This document shows positions 8,374 through 49,207 of a stretch of 64,000 nucleotides of DNA, one piece after another. Position 1 is the first letter of the stretch. The number at the start of each line of letters is the position of its first letter. The position numbers and the translations under genes are program-made. The DNA is from Gemmatimonadaceae bacterium (GTDB lineage Bacteria > Gemmatimonadota > Gemmatimonadetes > Gemmatimonadales > Gemmatimonadaceae), in assembly GCA_030835125.1 (NCBI GenBank), contig JAUQWM010000037.1:62001-126000 (forward strand), given 5' to 3'. The notes below the pieces were generated by a model, which saw only the letters and a list, made by a program, of their open reading frames with translations, made no database searches and was not told where the DNA came from.

Positions 8374-8801
8374 GCTCCGCTCCCGACGCCCAGGCGCTGG
8401 CGGAACGCATCGTGGCCGCGATGGTCGAGCGCGACGCGTTCAGCCGGTGGCTCGGAATCGAGGTGCTGGAGGTCGCACCCCGTCGCAGCACGTGCCGGTT
8501 GACCGTGCGCGACGACATGGTGAATGGCTTCGGCGTGACCCACGGTGGGATTGCGTTCTCGCTGGCCGACTCCGCGTTCGCCTTCGCCTGCAACACGAAT
8601 GGGAACGTGACGGTGAGCATCGAGAACGCGATCACGTACCCGGCACCGATCCAGGTCAATGACGTGCTCACGGCGGTCGCGCGGGAAGACGCCGCCTCGC
8701 GCCGCCTGGGATATTACAGCGCCGTGGTCGCGAACCAGCGTGGCGAGGTCGTGGCACTCTTCCGTGGAACCGCGTTCAGGACGGAGCGGGAGCATGCGTA
8801 G
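8370..8801 (+). CDS. paaI: hotdog-fold acyl-CoA thioesterase, phenylacetate pathway
   Basis: 143 residues; ATG 8370 overlaps the paaH stop (ATGA). A single hotdog domain with the PaaI signature around VNGFGVTHGGIAFSLADSAFAFACN (residues 50-74), including the conserved HGG and the following Asp. PaaI hydrolyses ring-hydroxylated phenylacetyl-CoA intermediates and is thought to free CoA from stalled or toxic pathway products. It is the last gene of a three-gene overlapping block; the next 123 bases hold a heptanucleotide array that separates it from paaJ. Confidence 0.88.
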   Translation: MSSAPDAQALAERIVAAMVERDAFSRWLGIEVLEVAPRRSTCRLTVRDDMVNGFGVTHGGIAFSLADSAFAFACNTNGNVTVSIENAITYPAPIQVNDVLTAVAREDAASRRLGYYSAVVANQRGEVVALFRGTAFRTEREHA

Positions 8802-8870
8802 AATCGGGAATCGGGAATCGGGAATCGGGAATCGGGAATCGGCAAGCGGGAATCGGGAATCGGGAATCGA
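8801..8870. repeat. heptanucleotide tandem array, unit GAATCGG x10
   Basis: Ten consecutive 7-base units. Nine match GAATCGG (the last is GAATCGA) and the seventh is CAAGCGG. The first base is also the last base of the paaI stop codon. It fills half of the paaI-paaJ gap. Confidence 0.95.
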
Positions 8871-10136: not shown

Positions 10137-10201
10137 GAGTTGGGAGTTGAGAGTTGAGAGTTGAGAGCCCAGCGTCACGAGTCACGAGTCACGAGTCACG
10201 A
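10137..10201. repeat. two adjacent heptanucleotide arrays (GAGTTGA x4, GTCACGA x4)
   Basis: Units at 10137-10164 are GAGTTGG then GAGTTGA three times. After nine bases, GTCACGA is repeated four times at 10174-10201. The second array ends five bases before the paaY ATG and so occupies the ribosome-binding-site region. Confidence 0.95.
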
Positions 10202-23923: not shown

Positions 23924-23926
23924 ACA

Positions 23927-24067
23927 GGGTCGAGGGTCGAGGGTCGAGGGTCGAGGGTCGAGGGTCGAGGGAAGGGACAAGAAGAAGGGGGAAGGTCGGC
24001 TCCGGAGCCGATACCTTCCCCCTCCTGCTTTCCCCTCTCTCGAGCCTCGACCCTCGAGCCTCGACCC
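23927..24067. repeat. inverted pair of heptanucleotide arrays flanking a hairpin
   Basis: GGGTCGA is repeated six times at 23927-23968. At 24040-24067 four units alternate TCGAGCC and TCGACCC, the reverse complement of the first array or one base off. The two arrays can pair with each other around the central hairpin (23987-24022). Confidence 0.92.
23987..24022. terminator. bidirectional hairpin between dapL and the VPS10-type gene
   Basis: Ten-base outer arms (23987-23996 and 24013-24022) and an inner 7+7 palindrome (23997-24010) with a two-base AT bulge. It lies between two convergent genes and is the most stable hairpin I found in the window. Confidence 0.75.
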
Positions 24068-24078
24068 TGCCGTATCCG

Positions 24079-27000
24079 TTACGGCACGTTCAGCGTCAGG
24101 TTGTGCGCCTTGAGTGCCGCGCCTAACGTGCGAGCCCTGGCGAGCACGCCATTGGCCTCGGTCATCGCCGACGACAGGGCCGTGCGGGCCGAGGATGCCT
24201 GGCGAGAGACCGCGTCGCTGGGCGGTTCCCAGATCGACATGATGACGTTCTTCACCGCGCCGACGCGAGCCAGCGCGTTGTCGGCTGCCCCGCCGCCCCG
24301 GCCACCACCGCCACCACCGCCACCTGCGCGCCCGCCCGCGGCCGCCGCGCCGCTCGGCACGCCGAGCTTCACGCGAACCGCATTATAGTCGCGATTCAGT
24401 GCCTCGAACTGCGACTTGAGGTTGGCCGGAACGCCTGCCGCAGCGCCGATCTTGCCGGCCACGTCCACCATCTGCGGGTGCAGCGCGTTCAGCGACGCCT
24501 GAACCTCGTTGCCGCGACGCTGTGCATCGTGCAGCTCGGTCGTCATCGCGGTCCAGCGGGTACGCTCGGCACCGGACAACCGCGCCTCCGGATCCATGAT
24601 GATCCGCATCGGCCTGGAGTCGATCGTCCGATTGCCGGCGACCAGCGCCACCGTATACGAACCCGGAGCCACATGCGGACCGGCGTTCCCGCCACCGCCG
24701 AAGCCGCCGAAGCCGCGACCACCGCCAGCCTGACCGTCGGAGCAGGGATCCTGCGCCATGTACCCGACCGGGGGTAGCGGTTGCGGCACGTTCGGGACTG
24801 CCGACGCGCCCCGTCCACCAGCGCGCCCGCCGCCACCACCACCACCACCGCCGGCCGGGGCACCACCAGTCGCGGGCAACGGCTCAACGCGCTGGTCCCA
24901 GCAGATGGTCTGGATGCCAGCGACGTTGCGGGTAGCCGGCACATCCAGCGTGCGCACCGTGCGCGAGCCGTCCGAGATGCGGACCTTGAGGTCCGGGACC
25001 GTCCGCTTCAGGTGGAACTGGATCACTGCGTCCGTCGGCGGGTTTTCGCCCGTGAAGAACTGGTGCCCCCAGAACTCATCGTTGCGGTCGTCCTTCGACT
25101 TCCATTGAAGCGCGGTCGGGACCGAGAACAGTTTCGCGTCGGCCGAGGCCGCGGTTGCCGCGGAGTATTCCTGGATCGGTTCGAGGTGGTCGAGCACCCA
25201 GATGGCGCGGCCATGCGTCGCGATCAGCATCGCATTGTCGCGCGGGTGGAGCGTGATCTCGTCGACACGAACCGTCGGGAAGTTGCGACCCTTGAGGCGC
25301 TGCCAGCTGCCGCCCTTGTCGAGCGAGACGAAGATGCCCGTCTCCGTGCCGATGTAGAGCACGTTGGCGTTGCGCTGATCCTCGGTGATGGTGCGCACGT
25401 TCTCGCCGCGCAGGTTGCTGACGATCGACCTGAACGTGGCGCCGAAGTCCGTGCTCACCCAGATATAGGGTGCGTAGTCATTGAGCAGGTGATTGTCGAC
25501 CGAGACGTACACGGTGCCGGCCGCGTACCGCGAAGGCACCACATCGGAGACGAACCCGCCCTTCGGCCCGCCGGTGAGGTTGGCCGTGATGTTGGTCCAC
25601 GTCTGGCCTCCGTTCCGGGACACACTGAGCGTCCCGTCATCGGCGCCGGTGTAGTACACGCCGACCTGCGCCGGCGATTCCGCGATCGTGACGAGGGTCG
25701 AGTAGGTCGAGATGCCGTCGTTCGCCGCGATGTTGATGTCGCTCCCCTTCACGCCCATCGTGGTGATGGTGTCCCGATTCACCTGGGCGGTGAGGTCCGG
25801 GCTGATGACCATCCACGAGTCGCCGCGATCGGTGGACTTGAACAGCCGGTTGGCCGCGACGAGCAGGGCGCCGGTGTCCGTCGAGTGGACCATCGGCGAG
25901 TCCCAGAAGAAGCGGTACGTGTCGCCGTCCTTGTGGTTCGTCACGTTCTGCGCCGACGGCCGGATGCTCTTCGACTCGCCCGTCACCTTGTCGCGGCGGA
26001 TCATGTTGCCGCCCTGCGACTCGGTGTAGACGATGCGCGAGTCGCGCACGTCCGGGATCGACACGAACCCGTCGCCGCCCTGGATGTTGAACCAGTCGTA
26101 GTTGTAGATGCCGCGGCTGTGCCGCGACGCGCTGGGTCCGCACCAGTTGTAGTTGTCCTGCATGCCGCCGCAGATGTTGTACGGCGTCTCCATGTCGTAA
26201 CCGACATGGTAGAACAGGCCGACGGGGAGGTTCGGGATGAACGTCCACGCCTTGCTCATGTCGTACGACACGGCCAGCCCGCCATCATTGCCAATGAGGA
26301 TGTGGTCGGAGTTGGCCGGGTTGATCCAGATCGCGTGCACGTCGTCATGCGTCGCGAACGCGGCGTCCTGCTCGAACGTGCGCCCACCATCAATGGTCAT
26401 CCACATGCCCACGCCGCCCAGGTAGACGCGGTCCGGGCTGTTCGGGTCGATCCGCACCTGGCTGAAGTACATCGGACGCGGATTGCCTGCGTTCAGGAAA
26501 CGCCACGTGCCACCGCCGTCCTCGGAACGCCAGAGGCCCGTCGTCGGCGCGGGCGCCGGGGCGCCACCGGCACGACCGCCGGCAGCACCACCCCCACCGC
26601 CACCGCCGCCGCCACGGCCTTGCACAGGACCCTCGATGAGCGCGTACACGAAATTGCCGCTGCGACGGAACACGTCGAGCGCAATACGCCCCAGGGGACC
26701 CGCGGGGAGGCCGTTGCCCGAGAGGCGATTCCACGTCTCGCCGCCGTCAGTCGACTTCCAGATCCCGCTCCCGGGACCGCCGCCGTTCATGCAGCACGCG
26801 TTGCGCACGCGTTGGTACGTCGAGGCGAACAGGATCTGCGGGTTGGTGGGAGAAATGACGAGGTCGTTGGCCCCGGTCCATTCATCGACGCGCAGGACCT
26901 GCTTCCAGGTGCGGCCGCCGTCGGTGGTCTTGTAGATCCCGCGATCGCCACCGCTGCCGAACAGCGGACCGGTCGCCGCGACCAGCACCACGTCGTTGTT

Positions 27001-27471
27001 GTTCGGGTCAATCACGATCCGGTTGATGTGCTTCGAATTCGCGAGGCCCATGTGCGTGAAGGTCGTGCCGCCGTCCGTGGACTTGTAGACGCCTCCACCC
27101 CACGAGGTGCTCTGGCGATTGTTCGATTCGCCCGCGCCGACCCAGAGGAGGTCGGGGTTCGTTTGCGAAATTGTCACGTCGCCGATGGCGATCAGCCCCT
27201 GGTCCTGGAACTGGGGGATGAACGTGGTGCCGTTGTTGGTGGTCTTCCACACCCCGCCGTGTGCCGTGCCGACGTAGTAGATCGCCGGATTCGCCTCGTA
27301 GACGGCGAGGTCCGCGATTCGCCCCGACATCGTGGCAGGACCGATGGATCGGAAGTGCAGGGAGTTGAACTGCTCGGCCACCGGCAGGCCCGTGCCTTGC
27401 GCGAGCAGCGAAGGGGCGGCCAGCGCCAACAGGAGCGGCGCGCCGGTGAAGTAACGCAAATGCCTGACCAC
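24079..27471 (-). CDS. exported sortilin/VPS10-type BNR-repeat protein
   Basis: 1130 residues from GTG 27469-27471, supported by GGAGG five bases upstream. Signal peptide about 1-25 (LAQ). The body is a large beta-propeller pair with at least eight Asp-box motifs (YKSTDGGTTF, YKTTDGGRTW, WKSTDGGETW, WRSEDGGGTW, FKSTDRGDSW, SVSRNGGQTW, WVSTDFGATF and a FVSLDKGGSW form). SIGPATMSGRIADLAV near residue 42 is typical of the group annotated as glycosyl hydrolase or sortilin-like. Several pure Gly/Ala/Arg-rich linkers break the sequence. Members are abundant in Gemmatimonadota and Acidobacteriota; some relatives cleave xyloglucan, but no catalytic residues can be assigned here. Confidence 0.85.
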   Translation of the reverse strand: MVRHLRYFTGAPLLLALAAPSLLAQGTGLPVAEQFNSLHFRSIGPATMSGRIADLAVYEANPAIYYVGTAHGGVWKTTNNGTTFIPQFQDQGLIAIGDVTISQTNPDLLWVGAGESNNRQSTSWGGGVYKSTDGGTTFTHMGLANSKHINRIVIDPNNNDVVLVAATGPLFGSGGDRGIYKTTDGGRTWKQVLRVDEWTGANDLVISPTNPQILFASTYQRVRNACCMNGGGPGSGIWKSTDGGETWNRLSGNGLPAGPLGRIALDVFRRSGNFVYALIEGPVQGRGGGGGGGGGAAGGRAGGAPAPAPTTGLWRSEDGGGTWRFLNAGNPRPMYFSQVRIDPNSPDRVYLGGVGMWMTIDGGRTFEQDAAFATHDDVHAIWINPANSDHILIGNDGGLAVSYDMSKAWTFIPNLPVGLFYHVGYDMETPYNICGGMQDNYNWCGPSASRHSRGIYNYDWFNIQGGDGFVSIPDVRDSRIVYTESQGGNMIRRDKVTGESKSIRPSAQNVTNHKDGDTYRFFWDSPMVHSTDTGALLVAANRLFKSTDRGDSWMVISPDLTAQVNRDTITTMGVKGSDINIAANDGISTYSTLVTIAESPAQVGVYYTGADDGTLSVSRNGGQTWTNITANLTGGPKGGFVSDVVPSRYAAGTVYVSVDNHLLNDYAPYIWVSTDFGATFRSIVSNLRGENVRTITEDQRNANVLYIGTETGIFVSLDKGGSWQRLKGRNFPTVRVDEITLHPRDNAMLIATHGRAIWVLDHLEPIQEYSAATAASADAKLFSVPTALQWKSKDDRNDEFWGHQFFTGENPPTDAVIQFHLKRTVPDLKVRISDGSRTVRTLDVPATRNVAGIQTICWDQRVEPLPATGGAPAGGGGGGGGGRAGGRGASAVPNVPQPLPPVGYMAQDPCSDGQAGGGRGFGGFGGGGNAGPHVAPGSYTVALVAGNRTIDSRPMRIIMDPEARLSGAERTRWTAMTTELHDAQRRGNEVQASLNALHPQMVDVAGKIGAAAGVPANLKSQFEALNRDYNAVRVKLGVPSGAAAAGGRAGGGGGGGGRGGGAADNALARVGAVKNVIMSIWEPPSDAVSRQASSARTALSSAMTEANGVLARARTLGAALKAHNLTLNVP

Positions 27472-27570
27472 TGAGCCTCCGGACGAGGGCTGGGGAAGGG
27501 TGGATCCGGTCGACGGAATCCCACCCCGGGGTTATCCCAATACGCGCCAGATGATAACGTCGCTGCCAGG

Positions 27571-27598
27571 GACCCGCGACCCGCCACCCGAAACCCGA
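27571..27598. repeat. degenerate heptanucleotide array running into a start codon
   Basis: Four 7-base units: GACCCGC, GACCCGC, CACCCGA, AACCCGA. The last A is the A of the ATG at 27598. Confidence 0.85.
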
Positions 27599-28707
27599 TG
27601 TACTCCACGTGCCTCTTCTGCAACCACGCACTCGGCTCGAACGAGGTCGTGGAGGCGTTCCCCGTCGGGAGGCGGCTGGCGTTCGATCAGCATCGGGGCC
27701 GCCTCTGGGTGGTCTGCCGCCGGTGCGAGAAGTGGAACCTGACGCCCCTCGAAGAGCGCTGGGAGGCGATCGAGACGTGCGAACGGCTCTTTCGCGACAC
27801 TCGCAAGCGCGTGTCAACGGACAACATCGGGCTGGCGAGGCTCTCGGAGGGCCTCACGCTGGTCCGGATTGGCGAGCCGCTGCGCCCCGAGTTCGCCGCG
27901 TGGCGGTATGGGGACCAGTTTGGTCGGCGACGCCGCCGCGGCGTGATCCTGATGACAGGGGCATTCACGATCATGGCCGGGTTCCTCGGGCTTTCGATCG
28001 CCAACACCATCAGTATCGGAACCACCGGCGTCGGCATGGTCAGTCCCTGGGCGCTTCAGGCCTTCCTGTTCAGCGATGTGCTCAAGCGCGCCTACCTCCG
28101 GCGGCGGCGGGTGGCGGCGATTTCGTCGGGCCCTGGCCGTCTTGCCGTGCGTGGAAAGGACCTCGATGGCGTGCGCCTGGTGCCGGTCGGCGAGGAGTCC
28201 TGGGGGATTGAGGTCCCCGGTGTGGCCGCAGGTTCCGCGACGAAGGTGGTGCTCGAGGGAGCGCTGGCACGTCACGCGGCTGCCCGCGTCGTCCCGAGAC
28301 TTACGCCGGGTGCCGGGGCCCGCGATGAAGTCGCGAGGGCAGTCGGCCTCCTGGAACGACGCGGCGATCCGGAGGGCTACCTCAACTGGATCGCGCGAAA
28401 CCCGACGCGGCACACTGACGGGGTCTGGAGCCGTGCGACCGGTAGCATCTCGAGCAAGGGCGCACCCGCGGATGCCCTCCAGGGGCAGGGAGTGGACGTC
28501 TGCCTCGCGGTCGAGATGGCGCTCAACGAAGAGAACGAACGCCACGCGCTGGAAGGTGAGTTGGCGCTCCTCGAACAGTCGTGGAAGGAAGCCGAGGAGA
28601 TTGCGGGGATCGCCGATCGCCTCGTGCTGCCGGAGGGTACCGAGGCAAGGCTCGGCGACCTCCGGCGTTCCGCTCCGAAAGGACATCACGATCCGTCGGG
28701 ACCGTGA
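27598..28707 (+). CDS. zinc-ribbon membrane protein, unknown family (paralogue 1)
   Basis: 369 residues from ATG 27598. Two CxxC pairs (Cys 5/8 and 40/43) form a likely zinc ribbon at the extreme N-terminus. A long conserved soluble stretch (44-115, RRCEKWNLTPLEERWEAIE, RVSTDNIGLARLSEGL) leads to a hydrophobic region (about 122-160) with one or two membrane helices. A C-terminal acidic helix follows (AVEMALNEENERHALEGELALLEQ). A second copy lies at 29284 with near-identical N-terminal and C-terminal blocks. I do not recognise a named family. No Shine-Dalgarno is visible because a heptamer array abuts the start, so initiation may be leaderless or SD-independent. Confidence 0.8.
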   Translation: MYSTCLFCNHALGSNEVVEAFPVGRRLAFDQHRGRLWVVCRRCEKWNLTPLEERWEAIETCERLFRDTRKRVSTDNIGLARLSEGLTLVRIGEPLRPEFAAWRYGDQFGRRRRRGVILMTGAFTIMAGFLGLSIANTISIGTTGVGMVSPWALQAFLFSDVLKRAYLRRRRVAAISSGPGRLAVRGKDLDGVRLVPVGEESWGIEVPGVAAGSATKVVLEGALARHAAARVVPRLTPGAGARDEVARAVGLLERRGDPEGYLNWIARNPTRHTDGVWSRATGSISSKGAPADALQGQGVDVCLAVEMALNEENERHALEGELALLEQSWKEAEEIAGIADRLVLPEGTEARLGDLRRSAPKGHHDPSGP

Positions 28708-28777
28708 GCAGGAGTTTCTCTGTGATCCTCGTGCCCCCTGTGGTTACGATGCTGGGGAGAATTCTTCCGGAGGACGA

Positions 28778-29260
28778 ATGAAGGCAACTCTGAAACTCGT
28801 GGTGCTCCTCATGGCGCCCACCGTCCTGTCCGGCCAGGGCGTGCCCGGGCTGTCGGTGCTGGTCGATGGCACGACCAGGTCGATCCCAGGCGAGGCCATC
28901 GGGCGGATGCCGCGCGATTCCATCCGCATGACGTTCCATGGCCAGGATGCCATGTGGTTCCGGGGCGTTGCGTTGGGGAGCGTGCTCCGGGACGCCGGCG
29001 TGCGCACCGATTCCCTGCGCGGCCCGGCGCTGGCCACCCGCGTCGTCATCGAGGCGTCGGACGGGTACCGCGTGGTTATCGCGCTCGCGGACCTCGATCC
29101 CTCGATCGGCGCACGCCACGTCATCCTCGCCGATCAGGCAGATGGCACGGCGCTGCCGCCTGACGAGGGCCCGTGGCGGCTCATCGTGGCCGGCGACCAG
29201 CGGCCGTCCCGGTCCGCTCGCCAGGTGATGTCGATCAGGGTGCTGACCGAACCGCGCTGA
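28778..29260 (+). CDS. small exported molybdopterin-oxidoreductase-like domain protein
   Basis: 160 residues from ATG 28778, with GGAGGA eight bases upstream. Signal peptide about 1-19 (VLSGQ). The rest matches the core of the oxidoreductase molybdopterin-binding (sulfite-oxidase-like) fold: FRGVALGSVLRDAGV, VVIEASDGYRVVIALADLDP, PWRLIVAGD and the terminal VMSIRVL strand. The usual cofactor Cys is absent in this short version, so it may bind a ligand without catalysis. It lies exactly between the two zinc-ribbon paralogues, on the same strand, which suggests a shared role. Confidence 0.72.
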   Translation: MKATLKLVVLLMAPTVLSGQGVPGLSVLVDGTTRSIPGEAIGRMPRDSIRMTFHGQDAMWFRGVALGSVLRDAGVRTDSLRGPALATRVVIEASDGYRVVIALADLDPSIGARHVILADQADGTALPPDEGPWRLIVAGDQRPSRSARQVMSIRVLTEPR

Positions 29261-29265
29261 TCCCG

Positions 29266-29286
29266 CCTGTTGCCTGTTGCCTCTTG
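29266..29286. repeat. heptanucleotide array CCTGTTG x3 containing a start codon
   Basis: CCTGTTG, CCTGTTG, CCTCTTG. The last three bases, TTG 29284-29286, are the likely start codon of the second zinc-ribbon gene. Confidence 0.8.
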
Positions 29287-30324
29287 TATTCCACCTGCCT
29301 GTTCTGCAACAACGCACTCGGCGCCAACGAGGTGATCGAGACCTTCCCGGTGGGAAGGCGGCTCGCGTTCGACCAATCGAAGGGACGGCTCTGGGTCGTG
29401 TGCCGCAAGTGCGAGAAGTGGAACCTCTCGCCGATCGAGGAGCGCTGGGAAGCGATCGAGGATTGCGAGCGCCGGTTCCGCGATGCGCGCAAGCGCGTCT
29501 CCACCGACAACATCGGCCTGGCGCGCGTGTCCGAGGGCCTGGAACTGGTCCGGATTGGCGAACCAGAGCGCCCCGAGTTCGCGGCCTGGCGGTACGGGGA
29601 CCAGTTCGGGCGCCGGCGCAATCGGGCGATCATGCTTGGCGTTGGCGCCGGCATCGTCGGGGGTGGAATCCTCATCGCCGGTGGACTGGCTGGCGCCATC
29701 GGCAGTGGCGGATATGGCACGTTCCAGAGCGTCGGGTGGCTGATCGAACTGACTCGCAAGAAACGTCGTCTCGCGGTCATCACTGGACCGGACGGGGAAC
29801 GACTGACGGTCCGCGGCGAGCACGCCGACCGGTCGAAGCTCGTCGTCATGGCGTCCACTCCCGGCGTCCTGTCGCTCGAACTCCATCACAGTGGCGGCAC
29901 CACGATGCTCGACGGTGACGTCGCGCGCCGGGCAACGGCGCTCATCATGCCGAAGGTGAACGCCGGCGGCGCAAAACGCGATGTCGTGCGCACCGCGGTC
30001 AGCCGCATCGAGTCCTCGGGTGATCCCCAGCGCTTCCTGGACTGGGTGGCCCGCAATCCGCCGACACAGGAACCGTCCGCGTGGAAGCGGTGGCCGAAGC
30101 CACGGCCAAACGGGATCGGCCAACTCGACCTGCAGACCCGCCTCGCGATCGAGATGGCGGTGAATGAGGAGAATGAACGCGCCGCCCTCGAAGGCGAGCT
30201 GGCCCTGCTCGCGATGGAGTGGAAGGAGGCGGAGGAGATCGCCGGGATCGCCGACACGCTCACGACGTCGGTGGAGATCGACAGCGCGCTGCATGCGTTG
30301 AAGCGCGACACGAATCAGGACTGA
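29284..30324 (+). CDS. zinc-ribbon membrane protein, unknown family (paralogue 2)
   Basis: 346 residues if it starts at TTG 29284, which aligns the product residue for residue with the N-terminus of the paralogue at 27598 (xYSTCLFCNxALGxNEV); no ATG lies at the homologous place. It has the same CxxC pairs, the same RVSTDNIGLAR block, a Gly-rich hydrophobic segment (about 118-145), and the same C-terminal acidic helix (IEMAVNEENERAALEGELALLAMEWKEAEEIAGIAD). The middle (150-270) diverges more between the copies. Tandem duplication with an exported domain gene between them is inferred. Function unknown. Confidence 0.8.
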   Translation: MYSTCLFCNNALGANEVIETFPVGRRLAFDQSKGRLWVVCRKCEKWNLSPIEERWEAIEDCERRFRDARKRVSTDNIGLARVSEGLELVRIGEPERPEFAAWRYGDQFGRRRNRAIMLGVGAGIVGGGILIAGGLAGAIGSGGYGTFQSVGWLIELTRKKRRLAVITGPDGERLTVRGEHADRSKLVVMASTPGVLSLELHHSGGTTMLDGDVARRATALIMPKVNAGGAKRDVVRTAVSRIESSGDPQRFLDWVARNPPTQEPSAWKRWPKPRPNGIGQLDLQTRLAIEMAVNEENERAALEGELALLAMEWKEAEEIAGIADTLTTSVEIDSALHALKRDTNQD

Positions 30325-30494: not shown

Positions 30495-30827
30495 ATGGCT
30501 GACCTGACCAGCCCGGACGTGATCCGGGGGACGCTCGACCTCCTCATCCTCAAGACCCTCACCCTCGAGGACATGCACGGGTGGGGCATCGGGCAACGCA
30601 TCCAGCAGATCTCGCGGGGGATTCTCGAGGTCAACCAGGGATCACTGTACCCGGCGCTCCAGCGCCTCGAGCAGCGGGGATGGATCGCCAGTGAATGGCG
30701 CACCTCTGAACTCAATCGCCGCGCGAAGTACTACCGCCTCACGGCCTCCGGTCGTCGCGCCGTCGGCACCGAGACGTCGAACTGGCGGCGGTACGTCGGT
30801 GCCGTGGACCTCATCCTGGAGTCCTGA
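30495..30827 (+). CDS. PadR-family transcriptional regulator (module 1)
   Basis: 110 residues from ATG 30495. It is a short PadR-s1 type winged helix: GTLDLLILKTLTLEDMHGWGI, the recognition region GSLYPALQRLEQRGWI, and a C-terminal dimerisation helix. PadR repressors bind inverted repeats over their own promoter, and one lies 20 bases upstream. It overlaps nothing but ends two bases before the permease start, so the pair is one transcription unit and the regulator very likely controls the permease. Confidence 0.93.
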   Translation: MADLTSPDVIRGTLDLLILKTLTLEDMHGWGIGQRIQQISRGILEVNQGSLYPALQRLEQRGWIASEWRTSELNRRAKYYRLTASGRRAVGTETSNWRRYVGAVDLILES

Positions 30828-30829
30828 CG

Positions 30830-33484
30830 ATGGATCGCGTGCGTGGGGCCCTGGCGCAGCTGCGCGCGATCGTCCGCGGGCGGGGCGCGGACCGCGACCT
30901 CGAGGAGGAAATGCAGTCCCACCTCGACATGGAAACGGCCCGGAACCTCGCGGCGGGCCATCCGCCTGACGAGGCGCGCCGGCTGGCGCGGGCCGTCTTT
31001 GGCGGCCACGACGCCACCCTGGAGGCCCACCGCGATGCCCGCGGCGGGCGCTGGATCCCGGACCTCCTGCGCGACGGGCGGTTCGCCCTCCGCTCCCTTC
31101 GCCACAACCCGGCCCTCACCACCGCCGCGATCGTCACGCTGGCCCTGGGGGTGGGGGCCAACACCGCCATCTTCTCCACACTCCAGGCGGTCGTGCTTCG
31201 CCCGCTGCCGTTCCGGGAGCCCGGGCAGCTGGTCATGCTCTGGGAACGGAATGCCGAACGCGGGTGGACCCAGGCCCAGGCGGCGCCGGCGAACTACCTC
31301 GACTGGAAGGCGCAGGTGGGCGCCTTCCAGGACGTGGCTGCCTATCCCGACTTCATCACGAACACCGTCCTCAGCCAGGACGGCGAGGCCCGGCTTGTCG
31401 AGTCCATGACGGTGACGGGCAACTTCTTCCAGGTGCTCGGAGTGCCAGCTGCGTTAGGCCGGACGTTCACCGACGAGGAGTCCTGGGCCACCGGGGAACG
31501 GATTGCCCTCATCAGCCACCGCCTCTGGCGCACCCGCTTCGGCGGCGATTCCGCCCTCGTCGGCAGGACCATCGACCTGGGCGGCTACCCGGTCCGTGTC
31601 CTGGGTGTGGTGCCAGCGTCGTTCACCTTCCCGGGCCGTGACCCGGACGTCTGGCGCCCGACCGCCTTCAGCCGGGATGGTGCCCAGGCGGTGTCGTTCC
31701 GCCGGGCGCACTGGCTTCGGGTCATCGCCCGCCTTCGCCCGGGGATCACCCCCGGGCAGGCCGATGTCGCCCTGCAGGTCGTCGTGCAGCGCCTGCAGCG
31801 CGACTATCCCGAAACCAACACCGGCATGGGTGCCGGCCTCGGTCCGCTGCACCAGTTCCTGGTGGGCGACGTCCGGAAGCCGCTCGTCGCCCTGCAGGTG
31901 GCGGTGGGCCTGCTCCTGCTCATCGCCTGCGCCAACGTGGGCAACCTCCTGCTCGTGCGCGCCGCCGATCGCGAGCGCGAATCGGTCGTCCGGCTGGCGC
32001 TCGGGGCCGGGCGCGGCCGGCTGGTGCGGCAGGCCCTGGCCGAGAGCCTGGTGCTCTCTGCGTTAGGCGGCGCCGCCGGGGTCGCCCTGGGCTGGGCCGG
32101 CACGCGGGTCCTCGCCGCCATGCAGCCGGAAGGCATGCTCCCCGTCGGGAACATCGGCGTCAACGTCACGGTGCTGGCGTTCGTCGTCGCGACGTCCGTC
32201 CTCAGTGGACTGCTGTTCGGGATCGGCCCCGCCCTGTGGGCCGGGCGTCGCGCCCCGGCCGAAGTCCTCAAGGAAGGCGGGCGCGGTGCGAGCCGCGCCA
32301 TCGTGCGTCGCTGGAGTCACGGGCTCGCCGTCGCCGAGGTGGCAGTCGCGCTCGTGCTGCTGTCCGGCGCGGGCCTGCTGGTGCGCAGCTGGTGGCGGGT
32401 CCAGTCGGTCGACCCCGGCCTGGTCCCGGAAGGCGTGCTGACCATCAACACCAGCCTCCCCCCTGGTCGCTTCGATACCCAGGACAAGCGGGACGTCTTT
32501 CACGAGTCGGTCCTCGCGCGACTCGAGGCCATTCCCGGTGTCCAGGGCGCGGCCACGGTCACCCGACTCCCCATGACGCTGTCGGGATGGTCGAGTGACT
32601 TTGCCGTCGCGGGTCGGCCGCGTGAGGCGTTCGGGATCGAGGCCGTCCACCGCGAGATCACGCCCGCCTACCATGACGTCATGAAGGTTCCGCTCGTGCG
32701 CGGGCGCTTCTTCACCGCAGCCGACCACCGCTCCGCGCCAGCGGTCGTGCTCATCAACGACGCCATCGCCAGGAAGTACTTCGCGGACGAGGATCCGATC
32801 GGCCAGCGTATCGCCTTCGACCGGTACCCGGACTCCACCTCGTACTGGCGCACGATCGTGGGCGTCGTCGGGAGCGAGCGCCAGGAGGGACTGGAGCGCG
32901 AACCCCGCCTCGAGTTCTTCGCCCCGGTCGCCCAGGACGAAGCCGCGCCGCGCACGTTCGTCATCCGCACCACCACCGACCCGTCTGCGATCGTTGCCGC
33001 CGCGCGGGCGGCGATCACGAACGTCGACCGGACCGTGGCGATCGAGCGGGTCGCCGCCATGACCGAGATCCGCGATGCCGCGCTGGCCAGGCGGCGGTTC
33101 GTGATGACGCTCGTCCTCACGTTCGCGGCGGCGGGCCTCCTGCTTGCCCTCGTCGGCGTCTACGGCGTGATGGCACAACTGGCGCGCGGCCGGCGGCGGG
33201 AGCTTGGCATCCGGGTCGCGCTCGGCGCGCCGAGCGCGAGCATCCGGAGCATGGTATTGCGCAAGAGCCTCGCGCTGGCCGCCACCGGAGTCCTGGTCGG
33301 TGTGACGCTTTCGGTGGCCGCCACCCGGGCGATGGCGTCCCTCCTGTACGGCGTCTCACCGGTCGACCCCGTCACGCTGGCGCTGGTGGGAATGCTCCTC
33401 GCCACCGCCGCCGTCGCGTCCAGCATGCCGACCGCCCTGCGCGCGTCCCGCGTGAACCCGACCGAGACCTTGCGCGCCGATTGA
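30830..33484 (+). CDS. ADOP-family MacB/FtsX-like permease (module 1)
   Basis: 884 residues from ATG 30830. An N-terminal prefix domain (1-75, DRDLEEEMQSHLDME, HPPDEARRLARAVFGG) precedes two MacB-periplasmic-plus-FtsX units. Membrane helices are near 97-117, about 360-380 and 405-425, then about 500-520, 762-782, 820-840 and 850-870. TTAAIVTLALGVGANTAIFS is the family signature at the first helix. ADOPs (named from Acidobacteria duplicated orphan permeases) lack an adjacent ATPase, as here. Probable role: mechanotransmission or efflux of envelope-active compounds with an ATPase encoded elsewhere. Confidence 0.9.
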   Translation: MDRVRGALAQLRAIVRGRGADRDLEEEMQSHLDMETARNLAAGHPPDEARRLARAVFGGHDATLEAHRDARGGRWIPDLLRDGRFALRSLRHNPALTTAAIVTLALGVGANTAIFSTLQAVVLRPLPFREPGQLVMLWERNAERGWTQAQAAPANYLDWKAQVGAFQDVAAYPDFITNTVLSQDGEARLVESMTVTGNFFQVLGVPAALGRTFTDEESWATGERIALISHRLWRTRFGGDSALVGRTIDLGGYPVRVLGVVPASFTFPGRDPDVWRPTAFSRDGAQAVSFRRAHWLRVIARLRPGITPGQADVALQVVVQRLQRDYPETNTGMGAGLGPLHQFLVGDVRKPLVALQVAVGLLLLIACANVGNLLLVRAADRERESVVRLALGAGRGRLVRQALAESLVLSALGGAAGVALGWAGTRVLAAMQPEGMLPVGNIGVNVTVLAFVVATSVLSGLLFGIGPALWAGRRAPAEVLKEGGRGASRAIVRRWSHGLAVAEVAVALVLLSGAGLLVRSWWRVQSVDPGLVPEGVLTINTSLPPGRFDTQDKRDVFHESVLARLEAIPGVQGAATVTRLPMTLSGWSSDFAVAGRPREAFGIEAVHREITPAYHDVMKVPLVRGRFFTAADHRSAPAVVLINDAIARKYFADEDPIGQRIAFDRYPDSTSYWRTIVGVVGSERQEGLEREPRLEFFAPVAQDEAAPRTFVIRTTTDPSAIVAAARAAITNVDRTVAIERVAAMTEIRDAALARRRFVMTLVLTFAAAGLLLALVGVYGVMAQLARGRRRELGIRVALGAPSASIRSMVLRKSLALAATGVLVGVTLSVAATRAMASLLYGVSPVDPVTLALVGMLLATAAVASSMPTALRASRVNPTETLRAD

Positions 33485-39830: not shown

Positions 39831-40163
39831 ATGGCCGCTCCGGAACTGCAGCAGGGTACGCTCGACCTGCTCGTGCTCACCACCCTCCACGCCGGTCCGA
39901 TGCACGGCTGGGCGATTTCGCGACGCATCCAGCAACAGTCGGGGGAGGTGCTGCGCGTCGGGCAGGGTTCGCTCTACCCGGCCCTGTACCGCCTCGAGGA
40001 ACGCGGCCTTGTCCGCGCCGAGTGGGGCATCTCCGATGAAGGACGTCGCGCGAAGTTCTACCAGCTCTCCGCGGCCGGCCGCCGGGCGCTGGCTCGGGAG
40101 AGCGAGGCCTGGCGCCAGTATTCCGGCGCCGTGAACCTCGTGCTCGAGGGGGCCGGGATATGA
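39831..40163 (+). CDS. PadR-family transcriptional regulator (module 2)
   Basis: 110 residues from ATG 39831. PadR winged helix: QGTLDLLVLTTLHAGPMHGWAI, then GSLYPALYRLEERGLV and the KFYQLSAAGRRALA dimerisation region. It is close in sequence to the regulators at 30495 and 48652. The stop overlaps the permease start (ATGA), so regulator and permease are translationally coupled. The operator candidate at 39776-39817 is the most perfect of the three. Confidence 0.93.
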   Translation: MAAPELQQGTLDLLVLTTLHAGPMHGWAISRRIQQQSGEVLRVGQGSLYPALYRLEERGLVRAEWGISDEGRRAKFYQLSAAGRRALARESEAWRQYSGAVNLVLEGAGI

Positions 40164-42820
40164 TGTCTCCCACGCGGATCCTGCGTCGCCTGCGTTCGAT
40201 CCTTGCCGGGCGGGCCCTGGACCGGGACATGGACGCCGAGATGACGTTTCACCTCGACATGGAGGCCGCCGCCGGGGTCCGGCACGGCCTTCCGCCTGAC
40301 GAGGCGCGTCGGCGCGCTCGACACGTGTTCGGCGCGGTAGAGCGATTCCGGGAAGAGGGCAGGGAGGCCCGTGGGATCGCCGGCGTTCGCGACCTGTCAG
40401 GCGATCTTCGCTATGCGGCGCGGGTCCTGCGGCGTTCCCCGGTCTTCACGACCGTGGCCATCGTGACCCTCGCACTCGGCATCGGCGCCAACTCGGCGAT
40501 CTTCTCGGTCGTCAACGCCGTCCTGCTCCGGCCGCTGCCGTTCCCGGAGACCCGCACCCTGGTGAGTGTCTGGGACGGCGGCCACTCCATGGCGGAGTTC
40601 CGCTACCTGCGCGACCGGACCCGCACGCTGGACGCGGTCGCGACCTACACGCCGGATTTCGGCGTCAGCCTCAGCGCCGCCGGCGAGCCCGTGCGCCTGA
40701 CGAGTGCGCTGGTGAGTGCGGGGTTCTTCGACGTCCTCCGGGTGCAGCCGATGAAGGGCCGCTTCCTCGCGCCGGGCGACGACGGGCCGGGCGCCGCGCC
40801 GGTGGTGGTCATCAGCCACGCCCTGTGGCGTGACCGGTTCGCGTCCGACCCCGCCATCATCGGGCGACCCATCGAACTCGATGGTGTGAGCAGGCAGGTG
40901 GTTGGCGTTGCGCCGCCGGGTCTCTCGTTTCCGGGCAGCGAGACGCGACTCTGGGTCCCGCTGCTCATCGATCCCACGGGTGCCCGCTGCCGGGCGGATG
41001 CGCCCCCGCGGTGCCGCGCTGGCGCCGTAGGGACTCACTGGGGCGCGTATGGACACCAGGTCATCGGTCGGCTCAAGGACGGCGTGACGACCGGGCAGGC
41101 GGGTGCCGATGTCCGCCGCATCGCGGCCGAATTGCAGCGCGACAACCCCGTGTGGCGGCCGGGTCCCGAGTATCTCGATGGGATCGCGGTTAGCGACCTC
41201 CGCGACCGCATCGTTGCCGACAGCCGCCGGCTCCTCTGGGTGCTGCTCGGCGCCGTCGGCCTCGTCCTGGCGATGGCCTGCGCCAACGTCGCGAACCTGC
41301 TCGTGGTGCGGGGGGCAGCGCGAGGGCGGGAGATGGCGGTGCGAGCGGCCGTCGGGGCGGCGTCGGGCCGGCTGGCGCGACAATTGTTCGTCGAGCACTT
41401 CCTCCTCGCCGTGCTGGGGGGCGGCGCCGGGCTGCTGCTCGCCATGGCGCTGGTGCCGATCCTCAGGTCGCTCCTGCCGGTCACTACGCCGCGACTCGAC
41501 GAAGTCCGGTTGGACGGTTGGGTCTTCGGCTTCACCGTCCTGGCGACAGCTGCAACGGCGTTGTTGTCCGGTATCGCGCCCGCCCGGCGGCTGGCCCGGG
41601 TCACCGGACTGCAGGCGATGGGCAACGCCCGTTCCGGCAGCAGCGCGCAGCAGCGCCGGTTGGCCGGCGCGCTGGTGAGTGCGCAGATCGCGATTGGTGT
41701 CGTGCTGGCCATTGGGGCCGGGCTGCTGGGGCGCAGCCTCGCGAGGATCATGGACATTGACCCGGGCTTCGCCGCGGCGCAGGTGGTGACCGCCCAGGTG
41801 AACCCGCCGCGGGCGCGCTACGCGGACCCCAACCGGCAGCGGGAACTCGTCAGGCAGGCCATCGAACGACTGGGTGCCGTACCGGGGGTGACCTCGGCGG
41901 CGGTCACGACGCAGCTCCCCTTCGACCAGACCAACCACGGCATCGCGATGTGGATCGACGGCTGGACGAAGGACCCCAACAAGCTCGAGCTGTTCGAGTT
42001 GAGGAAGGTCACGCCGGGCTTCTTCGCGGCCATGGGGATTCCTCTCCGCCGCGGCCGCGGCTTCACCGACGCGGATCGTGCCGATCGGACCCCGGTGGCG
42101 ATCGTGAGCGAGACCGCGGCCCGGCGGTTCTGGTCCGGCACCCAGGCAGTCGGCGGCCAGGTCCGCTTTCCCTGGCCCGGGTGGATGACCGTGGTGGGCG
42201 TGGCGGCTGACGTACGGAACAACGACCTGAAGGAGCCCGAGCTCCCGGCCATCTACGTGCCGTTCGACCAGGTGCCCGAGGTGCCATTCACCCTGGTGGC
42301 CCGCGCGTCCGGGAGTGCCGCCACGACCATTGCGGCGATGCGCGCGGTGATGCAGGAGGTGGCCATCGACGTCCCTTTGAGCCGTGAGCGCAGCATGGCG
42401 GCGCTCGTGGACGATTCGTTGTCCGGCCCCCGCGCCGCTGCAATGCTCCTCCTTGGATTCGGCGTGCTCGCCCTCATCCTCGGGAGCGTGGGCACTTATG
42501 GACTGGTGGCGTACGGGGTCGAGGCGCGCCGCCGCGAGTTCGCCGTACGCCTCGCCATGGGCGCGCGGGCACCCAGCGTCGTCCGGCTCGTGCTTCGCGA
42601 GGGCGCGCGCCTGGCGATGATTGGCGTGGCGATTGGCGTGGCGGGCGCACTCGCCCTGTCGGGCGCGATGCGCGGACTGCTGTACGAAGTCGCTCCAATC
42701 GACCCGGTCACCTTCGTGCTCGCGCCCCTGCTGCTGGGGGCGACGGCGCTGCTGGCCTGCGCCATTCCCGCCTGGCGAGCGACCCGGGTCGATCCCAGCT
42801 CAACCCTGAGAAGGGAGTGA
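40160..42820 (+). CDS. ADOP-family MacB/FtsX-like permease (module 2)
   Basis: 886 residues from ATG 40160 (a second ATG follows at 40163). Prefix domain at 1-75 (DRDMDAEMTFHLDMEAA, LPPDEARRRARHVFG), then the signature TTVAIVTLALGIGANSAIFS at the first membrane helix. The MacB-like periplasmic region and FtsX helices then recur as in module 1. Short cysteines at 277 and 283 (ARCRADAPPRC) may form a disulfide in the extracytoplasmic part. No ATPase adjacent. Sequence resembles modules 1 and 3 throughout but they are not recent copies. Confidence 0.9.
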   Translation: MMSPTRILRRLRSILAGRALDRDMDAEMTFHLDMEAAAGVRHGLPPDEARRRARHVFGAVERFREEGREARGIAGVRDLSGDLRYAARVLRRSPVFTTVAIVTLALGIGANSAIFSVVNAVLLRPLPFPETRTLVSVWDGGHSMAEFRYLRDRTRTLDAVATYTPDFGVSLSAAGEPVRLTSALVSAGFFDVLRVQPMKGRFLAPGDDGPGAAPVVVISHALWRDRFASDPAIIGRPIELDGVSRQVVGVAPPGLSFPGSETRLWVPLLIDPTGARCRADAPPRCRAGAVGTHWGAYGHQVIGRLKDGVTTGQAGADVRRIAAELQRDNPVWRPGPEYLDGIAVSDLRDRIVADSRRLLWVLLGAVGLVLAMACANVANLLVVRGAARGREMAVRAAVGAASGRLARQLFVEHFLLAVLGGGAGLLLAMALVPILRSLLPVTTPRLDEVRLDGWVFGFTVLATAATALLSGIAPARRLARVTGLQAMGNARSGSSAQQRRLAGALVSAQIAIGVVLAIGAGLLGRSLARIMDIDPGFAAAQVVTAQVNPPRARYADPNRQRELVRQAIERLGAVPGVTSAAVTTQLPFDQTNHGIAMWIDGWTKDPNKLELFELRKVTPGFFAAMGIPLRRGRGFTDADRADRTPVAIVSETAARRFWSGTQAVGGQVRFPWPGWMTVVGVAADVRNNDLKEPELPAIYVPFDQVPEVPFTLVARASGSAATTIAAMRAVMQEVAIDVPLSRERSMAALVDDSLSGPRAAAMLLLGFGVLALILGSVGTYGLVAYGVEARRREFAVRLAMGARAPSVVRLVLREGARLAMIGVAIGVAGALALSGAMRGLLYEVAPIDPVTFVLAPLLLGATALLACAIPAWRATRVDPSSTLRRE

Positions 42821-42827
42821 GGTTCTT

Positions 42828-45412
<2,585 letters not shown>

Positions 45413-45662: not shown

Positions 45663-48317
45663 CTAATCGGCCCGGATCGCGGTGAGCGGATCGACCCGCG
45701 TGGCGCGTCGCATCGGGATCAGGCAGGCGGCCGCCGCCACCAGCGCGATGACCACTGCCACCGCTACGAACGTCGCCGGGTCCGATGGCTTCACGCCGTA
45801 CAGCAGCGACTGCGTGAGCCGCGACAGCGCCAGCGCGCCCGCGATGCCGGTGACGATCCCGATGCCCGCGATGCCCAGGCCCTGGCGGAAGACCAGGCCG
45901 ACCACCTGGCTGCTCCCCGCCCCGAGCGCCATGCGGATGCCGATTTCCCGCTGTCGCTCCGAGACCATGTACGCCAGCACCCCGTAGGTGCCGATGGCCG
46001 CCAGCAGGAGCGCCACGCCGGCGAAGATCCCCAGCAGCTGCGACAGGAAGCGCTGCCTGACGAGCGATCCGCCCACCACCTCATCCATCGTGCGCATCTG
46101 GATGATCGGCAACCCGGGATCGATCGCCGAGACGGCCGCCCGGATGGCGGGCGCCAGCGCGGCCAGGGGCCGCGACACCTCCATCACCAGGTTCATCTGG
46201 CGCGGCGGGAAGCCCGTCACCCGCGCCGACTGCTCGTGGCTGAAGTACAGCTCCGTGCCCGCCGGGGCATCGAGGCCTCCCTGCTTCACGTCCCGCGCCA
46301 CGCCGATGATCGTGAACAGCGGGGTATTGGGCCCGAAGAACGGGTTGAGCCGGCGGCCGATCGGATCCCTGTCCTTGTAGAACCGCTTCGCCAGCGCCTC
46401 GTTGATGATCACCACCGGGCCGCCGATCGCGTCGCCGGACTCGAAGGCGCGGCCGCGGGTGATCTCGATGCCCATCGTCTGGAAGTACCCCTGCGTGACG
46501 ACCTGGTAGTAATCGACATTGGCGGGCGGGTCACCCGGGCCGGGGGCGTATCCCTCGAAGTTGGTGTCGTTCGCGTTCACGGGTCGCATCGGCGGGAGGC
46601 CCTGCATGGCACCCACCCGCTCCACGCCCGGGACGTCCGCCAGCGCGCGCGACAGGTCGGTGATGACCTGCACCACGCGCTGGGAATCGGGATAGGTCGC
46701 CGGGGGCAGCACCAGCCCGAACGTCACCCGGTTCGCGGATTCGAAGCCGGCGTCAACCGAGGTCAGGTTCCGGAACGTGCGGATGAGCAGTCCCGCGCCG
46801 ATCACGAGCATCACCGCCAGCGCGATCTCCGCGACCACCAGGCCGCGCCGCACCCGGTTCCGTCCCGCGCCCGAGGTGGCGCGCTGCCCGCCCTCCTTGA
46901 TGGCCAGGCTGACCGCCTGGTCGCCGATGTGCAGCAGCGGGGCGAGCCCGAACACGAGGCCCGTCACCAGCGCCACGCCGACGGTGAAGGCGAGCACCAT
47001 GGGGTCGAGCGTGATCTCGGCCGCCCGCGGGATGCTCTCCGGGTTGGCGGCGAGCAGCGCCTTGAGCCCCCAGTAGGCGAGCCCGAGCCCCAGCACGGCA
47101 CCCAGGACCGAGAGCACGATGCCCTCGCTCATGAACTGTCGCAGCAGCCGGCCCCGGGCCGCGCCGAGCGCCGTGCGCACCGCAAACTCCTTGTGGCGCG
47201 ACTCCGCCCGCGCCAGCAGCAGGTTGGCGACGTTGGCGCAGGCGATCAGCAGCACCAGCGCGACCGCGCCCTGGAGCACCCACAGCGCCCGCTTCACGTT
47301 GCCGACCACCTCGTCGTGCAGCGGCGCCACCTGCACGCGATGGGTCGAGTCGTTAGGTACGTGGCCTTGCGGTACCCATTCACGCCATCCCTGGCGGAGC
47401 ATGCCCTGCAGCTCGGCGTTCGCCTGGGCGATCGAGGCCTCGTCGGCCAGCCGGCCCACCAGGTAGATGAAGTGCGACCCGCGGTTCTGGCGATTGGCGG
47501 GGTTGAGCCCGAGGGGGAGCCAGAGCTGGGACTTCGAGTCGTGCAGGTCGAACCCCGGCGGCATGACCCCCAGCACCTCACGCGCGGCGCCGTTGACCTG
47601 GATCGTCGTCCCGACGATGGCGGGGTCGCCGCCGAAGGCGCGCTGCCACAGTTCATGCGAGAGCACCGCGACCGGTGCTGTCCCGGGCAGGTCCTGTTCG
47701 GCCGTGAAGACGGTGCCGCGCTGCGGCCTGACGCCGAGGACGTCGAACATGTTCGCGGTGACGAACGCGGTGTTGACCCGCTCCGGCCGGTCGCCTTCAC
47801 TCAGGTTCACGGCGCCGGTGGTGTAGGCCGCGACGCTCGAGAACGCCTTCGTGTGTTCCCGGAAGTCGAAGTACTCGGGGGGCGAGATCCAGAACTTGCT
47901 GAAGTTCAGCGTCGGGAACTGGCTGGTGATGAACATCAGCCGGTCCGCGCGTGGATAGGCCAGCGGCTTGCGCACCACGCCGTTGATGACCGAGAAGATC
48001 GCGCTGTTGGCGCCGATTCCCAGCCCGATCGTGAGCACGGCGAGCGTGGTGAACCCGGGCGACCGGCGCAGCAGGCGCACGCCGTACCGGAAGTCCTGGA
48101 GGGCCGAGTCGAGGAGCGAGCCACGGCGTTCGTCCCGGACCTCGTCCTTGATCTGCTCCACGCCGCCGGCCTCGAGGCGGGCCGCGCGGCGCGCCTCGTC
48201 AGGCGGCATGCCCGCCCGGACCTTCTCTTCCGTCAGCAGGTCGACATACGCGCGCACTTCCTGGTCGAGGTCGCGCTCGACGGCGCCCTTCGTGAAGAGG
48301 TTGCGGAGGAAGGACAT
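45663..48317 (-). CDS. ADOP-family MacB/FtsX-like permease (module 3)
   Basis: 884 residues from ATG 48315-48317, two bases after the PadR stop; the longer frame to 48455 overlaps PadR and is rejected. Prefix domain (VERDLDQEVRAYVDLLTEE, MPPDEARRAARLEAGG), signature TTLAVLTIGLGIGANSAIFS, MacB-like extracytoplasmic regions and FtsX helices with VLLLIACANVANLLLAR. The C-terminal half repeats the pattern, ending TRVDPLTAIRAD. Same length as module 1. It lies downstream of its regulator on the minus strand, and its 3' end faces the DUF5916 promoter region. Confidence 0.9.
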   Translation of the reverse strand: MSFLRNLFTKGAVERDLDQEVRAYVDLLTEEKVRAGMPPDEARRAARLEAGGVEQIKDEVRDERRGSLLDSALQDFRYGVRLLRRSPGFTTLAVLTIGLGIGANSAIFSVINGVVRKPLAYPRADRLMFITSQFPTLNFSKFWISPPEYFDFREHTKAFSSVAAYTTGAVNLSEGDRPERVNTAFVTANMFDVLGVRPQRGTVFTAEQDLPGTAPVAVLSHELWQRAFGGDPAIVGTTIQVNGAAREVLGVMPPGFDLHDSKSQLWLPLGLNPANRQNRGSHFIYLVGRLADEASIAQANAELQGMLRQGWREWVPQGHVPNDSTHRVQVAPLHDEVVGNVKRALWVLQGAVALVLLIACANVANLLLARAESRHKEFAVRTALGAARGRLLRQFMSEGIVLSVLGAVLGLGLAYWGLKALLAANPESIPRAAEITLDPMVLAFTVGVALVTGLVFGLAPLLHIGDQAVSLAIKEGGQRATSGAGRNRVRRGLVVAEIALAVMLVIGAGLLIRTFRNLTSVDAGFESANRVTFGLVLPPATYPDSQRVVQVITDLSRALADVPGVERVGAMQGLPPMRPVNANDTNFEGYAPGPGDPPANVDYYQVVTQGYFQTMGIEITRGRAFESGDAIGGPVVIINEALAKRFYKDRDPIGRRLNPFFGPNTPLFTIIGVARDVKQGGLDAPAGTELYFSHEQSARVTGFPPRQMNLVMEVSRPLAALAPAIRAAVSAIDPGLPIIQMRTMDEVVGGSLVRQRFLSQLLGIFAGVALLLAAIGTYGVLAYMVSERQREIGIRMALGAGSSQVVGLVFRQGLGIAGIGIVTGIAGALALSRLTQSLLYGVKPSDPATFVAVAVVIALVAAAACLIPMRRATRVDPLTAIRAD

Positions 48318-48319
48318 GG

Positions 48320-48652
48320 TCAGTTGGCCTGCAGGGCGAGGGTGATGGCGAGGGAGACGCGCTTCCACTGTCCGATCTCCGACTCGAGCTGTCGGCGGCC
48401 GGCAGCGGTGAGCCGGTAGTACTTGGCCTTGCGGTTGTTCTCCGAAGGTCCCCACGCCGACGACAGCCAGCCGGCGTCCTGCAGGCGGTGGAGGGCGGGG
48501 AAGAGCGAGCCGGGCTTGACCAGGAAGGTCCCCCGGGTGAGCTGCTCGATGCGGCGCGAGACGCCCAGGCCGTGCAGTTCACCCAGGGCGAGGGCCTTGA
48601 GGATGAGCAGGTCCAGCGTGCCTTGCAGCAGGTTGGTCGGAGACTGTCCCAA
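48320..48652 (-). CDS. PadR-family transcriptional regulator (module 3)
   Basis: 110 residues from TTG 48650-48652, chosen because it gives the same length as the other two PadRs, has AGGA upstream, and leaves room for the promoter; GTG 48671-48673 (117 residues) is the alternative but would lie over the predicted -10. The winged helix is clear: LQGTLDLLILKALALGELHGLGV, GSLFPALHRLQDAGWL, KYYRLTAAGRRQL. It is separated from the permease start by two bases. Confidence 0.88.
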   Translation of the reverse strand: MGQSPTNLLQGTLDLLILKALALGELHGLGVSRRIEQLTRGTFLVKPGSLFPALHRLQDAGWLSSAWGPSENNRKAKYYRLTAAGRRQLESEIGQWKRVSLAITLALQAN

Positions 48653-48676
48653 GGGATCCTCGCGGTGACGCACAAC

Positions 48677-49180: not shown

Positions 49181-49201
49181 CTCGGACCTCGGACCTCGGA
49201 C
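49181..49201. repeat. heptanucleotide array CTCGGAC x3
   Basis: Three perfect units followed by CTCCGTC, ending six bases before the stop codon of the minus-strand gene at 49208. Confidence 0.85.
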
Positions 49202-49207
49202 CTCCGT

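Follow-up and report, generated by a model that had tools for sequence, protein, structure and literature searches.

What do two related genes that flank a third one on the same strand do in a Gemmatimonadota genome, and do the three genes act together? The genes, here called A, B, and C, lie at positions 27598–30324 of a 64,000-nucleotide stretch from a Gemmatimonadaceae bacterium (assembly GCA_030835125.1, contig JAUQWM010000037.1, positions 62,001 to 126,000 of the forward strand), which is the window of this analysis. An earlier note, made from the sequence alone, placed three genes in this interval, described A and C as duplicated members of an unnamed family with a zinc ribbon and a membrane segment, and proposed that they form a functional unit with B. 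All three genes are located there and the description of A and C stands up to comparison, whereas the unit does not (see below). A and C are type I members of a family that is widespread in Gemmatimonadota, has undergone repeated duplication, and appears to be undescribed; as a tentative answer, its products may act as inner-membrane-tethered cytoplasmic zinc-ribbon adaptors. The architecture of the family is well supported; its role we infer.

First, we focus on the kinship of A and C. Gene A (27598–28707, + strand) has an ATG start and encodes 369 residues with Cys at positions 5, 8, 40, and 43, conservation up to residue ~112, a hydrophobic part at ~113–165, a middle domain, and a charged C-terminal helix at ~291–345. 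Gene C (29284–30324, + strand) encodes 346 residues from a TTG start that was set by homology; its mechanical open reading frame (ORF) begins upstream at GTG 29173. The two proteins share 51% identity over 365 aligned columns (E 5e-111), a likeness far beyond chance. Identity is unevenly distributed: it amounts to 86% in residues 1–112, falls to 26% across the hydrophobic part, and recovers to 39% in the middle domain and 64% in the C-terminal helix. At residues common to A and C, four-fold degenerate sites are identical in 25/51 cases in the N-terminal part, 2/9 in the hydrophobic part, 7/36 in the middle domain, and 9/17 in the C-terminal helix. Since these sites are about half alike or less in every region, the sequences point to an old duplication that has been maintained by selection. 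A recent duplication or gene conversion is ruled out in the main by the largely randomized four-fold sites. In a quick FastTree tree, C pairs with L059 (support 98), and A is basal in a seven-row clade (support 94).

The proposed N-terminal CxxC...CxxC ribbon is a zinc-ribbon-like motif that is nearly invariant among 75 full-length relatives of the A/C kind, which form the type I alignment set. Cys 5, 8, 40, and 43 are kept in 72, 74, 75, and 74 of these proteins, respectively, and the N-terminal 112 residues reach 81% mean column identity (60 rows). The N-terminal domain, which includes an Arg-rich stretch, contains many invariant Arg and the C-terminal helix many invariant Glu; these are the most constrained regions of the protein. 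The AlphaFold2 model of C (mean pLDDT 86.3, pTM 0.72) places strands 26–30, 35–39, and 46–48 between and after the Cys pairs of the ribbon (residues 1–48), followed by a helix (51–67) and strands within 70–91. Two helices (102–131 and 139–160), which we read as a membrane hairpin, lead into a beta-rich domain of five strands (162–210) with helices up to residue 257, and the C-terminal part consists of a long helix (283–326) and a last helix (330–345). Predicted alone, the N-terminal domain retains the same elements (pLDDT 80.9).

The hydrophobic segment, likewise described in the earlier note, has a best 19-residue hydropathy that averages 1.93 in type I (75 proteins), and its first half reaches the level of a membrane helix. 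The segment is Gly-rich, with a mean of 21% Gly in type I, and has basic flanks: the mean net charge before and after it is +2.95 and +1.32 in the 75 type I proteins, and +3.49 and +2.12 in 51 proteins of the sister form, type II, that is described below. From the model, the segment is read as a putative helical hairpin that leaves both ends on the cytoplasmic side.

The family is widespread in its phylum. Members are present in 285 of 395 Gemmatimonadota genomes (~72%) and 104 of 138 genera, and in 47 of 60 genomes of relatives when the window's own genome is included. Genomes carry between 1 and 13 copies: the window's genome holds five, of which the fifth is damaged in its N-terminal part, and in one 4.5-Mb genome the N-terminal domain has 13 matches, including a partial one. 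A scan of the contigs of 84,980 species confirmed 280 stretches, of which the best 80 (79 loci) were analyzed. Of 76 loci in which a family gene was called, 17 contain at least two (no family gene was called in L043, L081, and L105, and the count leaves out a split gene in L097). The duplication seen by the earlier note is supported, and clustering is frequent in the family. In named records, nearly all sequences that closely match the window belong to Gemmatimonadota. Among the best 80 of the 280 stretches, titles outside the phylum are Chloroflexota (L036), Gammaproteobacteria (L055, L057, L073, and L097), and ‘uncultured bacterium’ (L078). Because L036, L055, and L057 adjoin Gemmatimonadota rows in the tree, we suspect that these records are mislabeled or contain stray contigs. 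Family genes are truncated or damaged in L049, L060, L097, and G000:C26:168378-169067; such copies may be a sign of turnover, and errors of gene calling or assembly may account for some of them. A domain conserved to 81%, present in ~72% of the sampled genomes and in up to 13 copies, marks something that these bacteria depend on.

As far as our searches reach, the family appears to be undescribed, in agreement with the earlier note, which knew no name for it. Neither A nor C scores above a Pfam cut-off (best PF20271 CATASP, 17.1 bits versus 29) or an NCBIfam cut-off (best 11 versus 98), and 75 family members have no Pfam match over the cut-off either (best E 0.0029). The weak Pfam names among these matches are CATASP and TrbL_3, both below the cut-off, zf-Vps39_C, and DUF3040. 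A sequence search of the Protein Data Bank (PDB) yields no match for A or C below E 0.02, and a PADLOC scan of the products of all three genes plus two type II proteins reaches E 0.053 at best. The whole model of C has no match at E ≤ 0.001 among viral structures, and second structural looks give best Z scores of 2.3 for the whole model and 2.8 for the N-terminal domain. Peptide deformylase and SAH hydrolase rows in the fold searches were treated as noise. The lack of a structure match is no proof of a new fold. Generic zinc-ribbon models in Pfam (DZR, Zn_ribbon_8, and YjdM) also describe two CxxC pairs, but we take them to lack the long post-ribbon stretch, the hairpin, and the C-terminal helix of the family; single type II members weakly match these and other models at E 0.004–0.08, which is far from significance. 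Among literature titles on Gemmatimonadota proteins and on znuABC or zinc ribbons, none describes this family. The family libraries searched hold no entry for it.

The family has a second form. Single family genes in the lineages labeled f2 and f3 are about 30–40% identical to A and encode a middle domain with four additional Cys. A profile built from 15 such genes ranks type II above type I in a search of the phylum. In a joint alignment, the second CxxC...CxxC set is complete in 55/55 type II genes (locus G183 is counted twice and genes of ≤250 residues are excluded) and in 0/75 type I genes, and 11/75 type I proteins have any Cys within residues 151–280. The four extra Cys suggest that the type II middle domain is probably a second zinc ribbon, and the middle domain of A and C is probably its counterpart minus the metal site. 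The type II profile matches 58 order-mates, of which 32 have type II only, 25 type I only, and one (G134) both, in a tally made by eye from the best E-values of five scored candidates per genome, ignoring kinship, and in which some of the 32 contribute fragments (G229, G354, and G370). No genus among them is divided between the type-I-only and type-II-only states; the tally as a whole hints that the two types can replace each other. As type II is often present in single copy, it offers a clear handle on the function of the family.

How might such a protein work? Both ends would face the cytoplasm, and the ribbon, whose Cys motif is evident in the alignment, would hold a structural zinc. Since the strongest constraint falls on the N-terminal domain and the C-terminal helix, the simplest reading is that the Arg-rich domain and the Glu-rich helix form one cytoplasmic head that docks on a partner common to the family. 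The divergent hairpin and middle domain might then set the specificity of each paralog. Rather than an enzyme, such a protein would most likely be an adaptor or regulator, bound to the membrane, for membrane transport or assembly. The Cys4 site of the type II middle domain suits a cytoplasmic location and thus favors this arrangement. Several points weigh against it. In its second half, the hydrophobic segment is only weakly hydrophobic, the best 19-residue hydropathy averaging 1.11 in type I and 0.50 in type II, so that a single membrane crossing with the C-terminal part outside is possible. An enzyme role is possible as well, because no role has been assigned to several of the invariant charged residues. 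The proposed contact between head and tail is suggested by charge patterns only. Furthermore, neither the whole model of C nor its N-terminal domain has a Foldseek match in the PDB at E ≤ 0.001, and the adaptor reading thus receives no support from fold comparison.

The genomic contexts of type II are lineage-bound, and two of them give rise to rival readings. In f5, type II genes often lie between oppositely oriented trpG-like and nadE-like genes. A ZnuA search of 71 f5 genomes gives nine close homologs (E ≤ 5e-63) and 13 weaker rows, and at 8/9 close loci a type II gene stands directly upstream of znuA on the same strand, at a spacing of −4 to 156 bp, with the flanking trpG-like and nadE-like genes on the opposite strand. 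In these eight loci znuC follows, and also znuB except in L254, where the contig ends; the znu genes of L222 match PF01297 and PF00950. This arrangement and the two ribbon-like Cys4 sets of type II are consistent with a family that stores, passes, or senses zinc at the inner membrane together with a ZnuABC-type importer, type I being half-Cys derivatives. However, all znu-linked loci belong to one syntenic block, and the linkage may thus be a single historical event. Most f5 genomes with type II lack such a ZnuA, the ninth close locus (L249) has no type II gene, four weaker ZnuA loci (L255–L258) hold no family gene, and type II genes of f2 and f3 are placed elsewhere. Nothing metal-related is seen adjoining A or C in the window, and the znu linkage is no direct evidence on either of them. 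The family shows no sequence relation to the importer and, to our knowledge, is not known as a transporter component. We regard a role in zinc homeostasis as the foremost alternative, possible but doubtful. An extended version, in which double-ribbon type II proteins and ZnuABC make up a phylum-specific zinc-buffer or zinc-sensing system at the membrane and type I proteins are zinc-sparing one-ribbon adaptors for different transporters, would be a long shot. Bacteria exchange zinc-containing and zinc-free ribosomal proteins, which offers a comparison for the zinc-sparing idea. If the link to zinc is true, the family would be a new component of bacterial zinc handling. The second context is that of f2 and f3, where type II lies between a gene for a DAO-type FAD oxidoreductase and lipA, followed by pyruvate dehydrogenase (PDH) E1 genes, in 15/15 loci (in L211, with an intervening called ORF of 96 aa). 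In G293 of f4, a type II gene follows a gene for a 706-residue E1 fusion on the same strand. These loci would fit a factor that serves lipoate or 2-oxoacid dehydrogenase complexes by tethering or maturing them at the membrane. Yet lipA is present in 29/29 genomes checked and was seen by eye near a family gene only in the f2 type II carriers G036 and G134; it is not near any listed family coordinates in 21 others, while six (G130, G132, G142, G144, G185, and G281), which have no family coordinates listed, are unjudged. Type II of f5 is located elsewhere, and here, too, one block may represent one event. We consider a lipoate factor highly improbable.

Other explanations draw on the ribbon itself, on the copy number, or on the gene order. 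Binding to nucleic acids or polymerases is common among zinc ribbons, and the family might accordingly serve as a membrane tether, either for nucleic acid or for a transcription/translation complex. A low-scoring structural alignment to 5xog_I, a chain from an elongation complex of RNA polymerase II, points in the same direction (Z 2.3 over 41 residues, with an rmsd of 2.8 and 32% identity), but this Z score is within noise, and nucleic-acid genes are not regular neighbors among the 25 of 72 neighbor families listed. We thus consider a nucleic-acid tether improbable, though less so than a mobile or defense gene spreading through duplication. Such spreading would suit the tandem arrays and the variable copy number, with up to 13 matches in a 4.5-Mb genome, but becomes very unlikely given that 100 pattern matches in viral contigs include no confirmed family member, that plasmids hold none, that PADLOC reports no match of note, and that type II synteny is stable over genera. 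The functional unit of A, B, and C acting across the inner membrane, as proposed by the earlier note, has in its favor a common strand and gaps of 70 bp between A and B and 23 bp between B and C. However, a B homolog adjoins family genes in 0/111 loci that do not overlap the window's pair (tblastn at E ≤ 1e-3, 113 loci; the flanks of 32 of the 111 span only ~1.5 kb, and several contigs stop close by), and coordinates place it near a family gene in 0/12 relatives with a B homolog besides the window's own genome. Family genes thus occur without the exported gene, the observation that the earlier note named as refuting its proposal, although they often cluster by themselves; a three-gene unit is hardly credible. 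We judge B to be a chance neighbor and the trio, as far as these loci and relatives show, a local accident.

Gene B (28778–29260, + strand) encodes a 160-residue, Cys-free Oxidored_molyb-like protein with a leader-like N-terminus. It scores above the cut-off of the sulfite-oxidase-like domain PF00174 (30.3 bits versus 24, profile positions 69–164 of 169) and differs from it by the absence of Cys. The usual cofactor ligand of PF00174 is a Cys, which cannot be present in a protein with 0 Cys; the earlier note's description of a sulfite-oxidase-like protein without the cofactor Cys is hence accurate. Among the relatives of B seen, 7/8 are also Cys-free and the eighth has one Cys in an N-terminal extension. 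B is part of a scattered group of Cys-free Oxidored_molyb-like proteins, and the neighbors of its relatives have no common theme.

The neighbors of type I genes vary by locus, and the family has no single universal neighbor. When 120 direct neighbors from the 79 loci (called proteins of 80–520 residues with an M start and no X) are compared with Pfam, DUF819 is the commonest family (16), followed by di-haem peroxidase (6), and PF00174 is not among the 25 of 72 neighbor families listed. A DUF819 (PF05684) gene is found in 21/79 type I loci and adjoins 22/90 family genes. DUF819 was rejected as a universal partner, since its label requires 11 changes on the tree (90 labeled rows) and is restricted to one part of it. 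In part, the pattern reflects DUF819 genes that often have a family gene on each side. DUF819 membrane proteins thus recur near type I in one part of the tree, but not near A or C. At loci such as L058 and L062, the DUF819 gene often lies between two type I genes and is accompanied by a gene for a protein of 200–260 residues, one example of which has no Pfam match.

Outside the family, the window holds a PadR-like regulator gene (30495–30827, + strand; PF03551, E 2.7e-22) downstream of C, followed by a large permease gene (30830–33484, + strand), which is called as an ORF only and which we take to be of the MacB/FtsX-like type. Three times in the window, a small gene is paired with a large permease-like gene (30495–33484, 39831–42820, and 45663–48673); the PadR match was scored for the first pair, and the other two are similar by eye. 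Upstream of A, an 897-residue open frame (24781–27474, + strand) is antisense to a gene for 1130 residues (24079–27471, − strand) and is probably a by-product of high G+C. A scan for promoters and terminators around A, B, and C gives 0 promoter-like and 3 terminator-like sites and is uninformative. Seven exact tandem arrays of period 7 are present in the window (8801–8842, 8847–8869, 10144–10167, 10174–10201, 23926–23971, 42828–42865, and 49181–49204). Their units differ and all are intergenic, in a window with 8.3% intergenic sequence, and several follow stop codons directly; other periods from 4 to 15 have at most one array each. In the 79 related loci, five period-7 arrays are found, confined to L068 and L107. 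Short seven-base-like runs also lie directly upstream of A (27557–27597) and of C (29267–29282), and the TTG start of C sits at the end of such a run.

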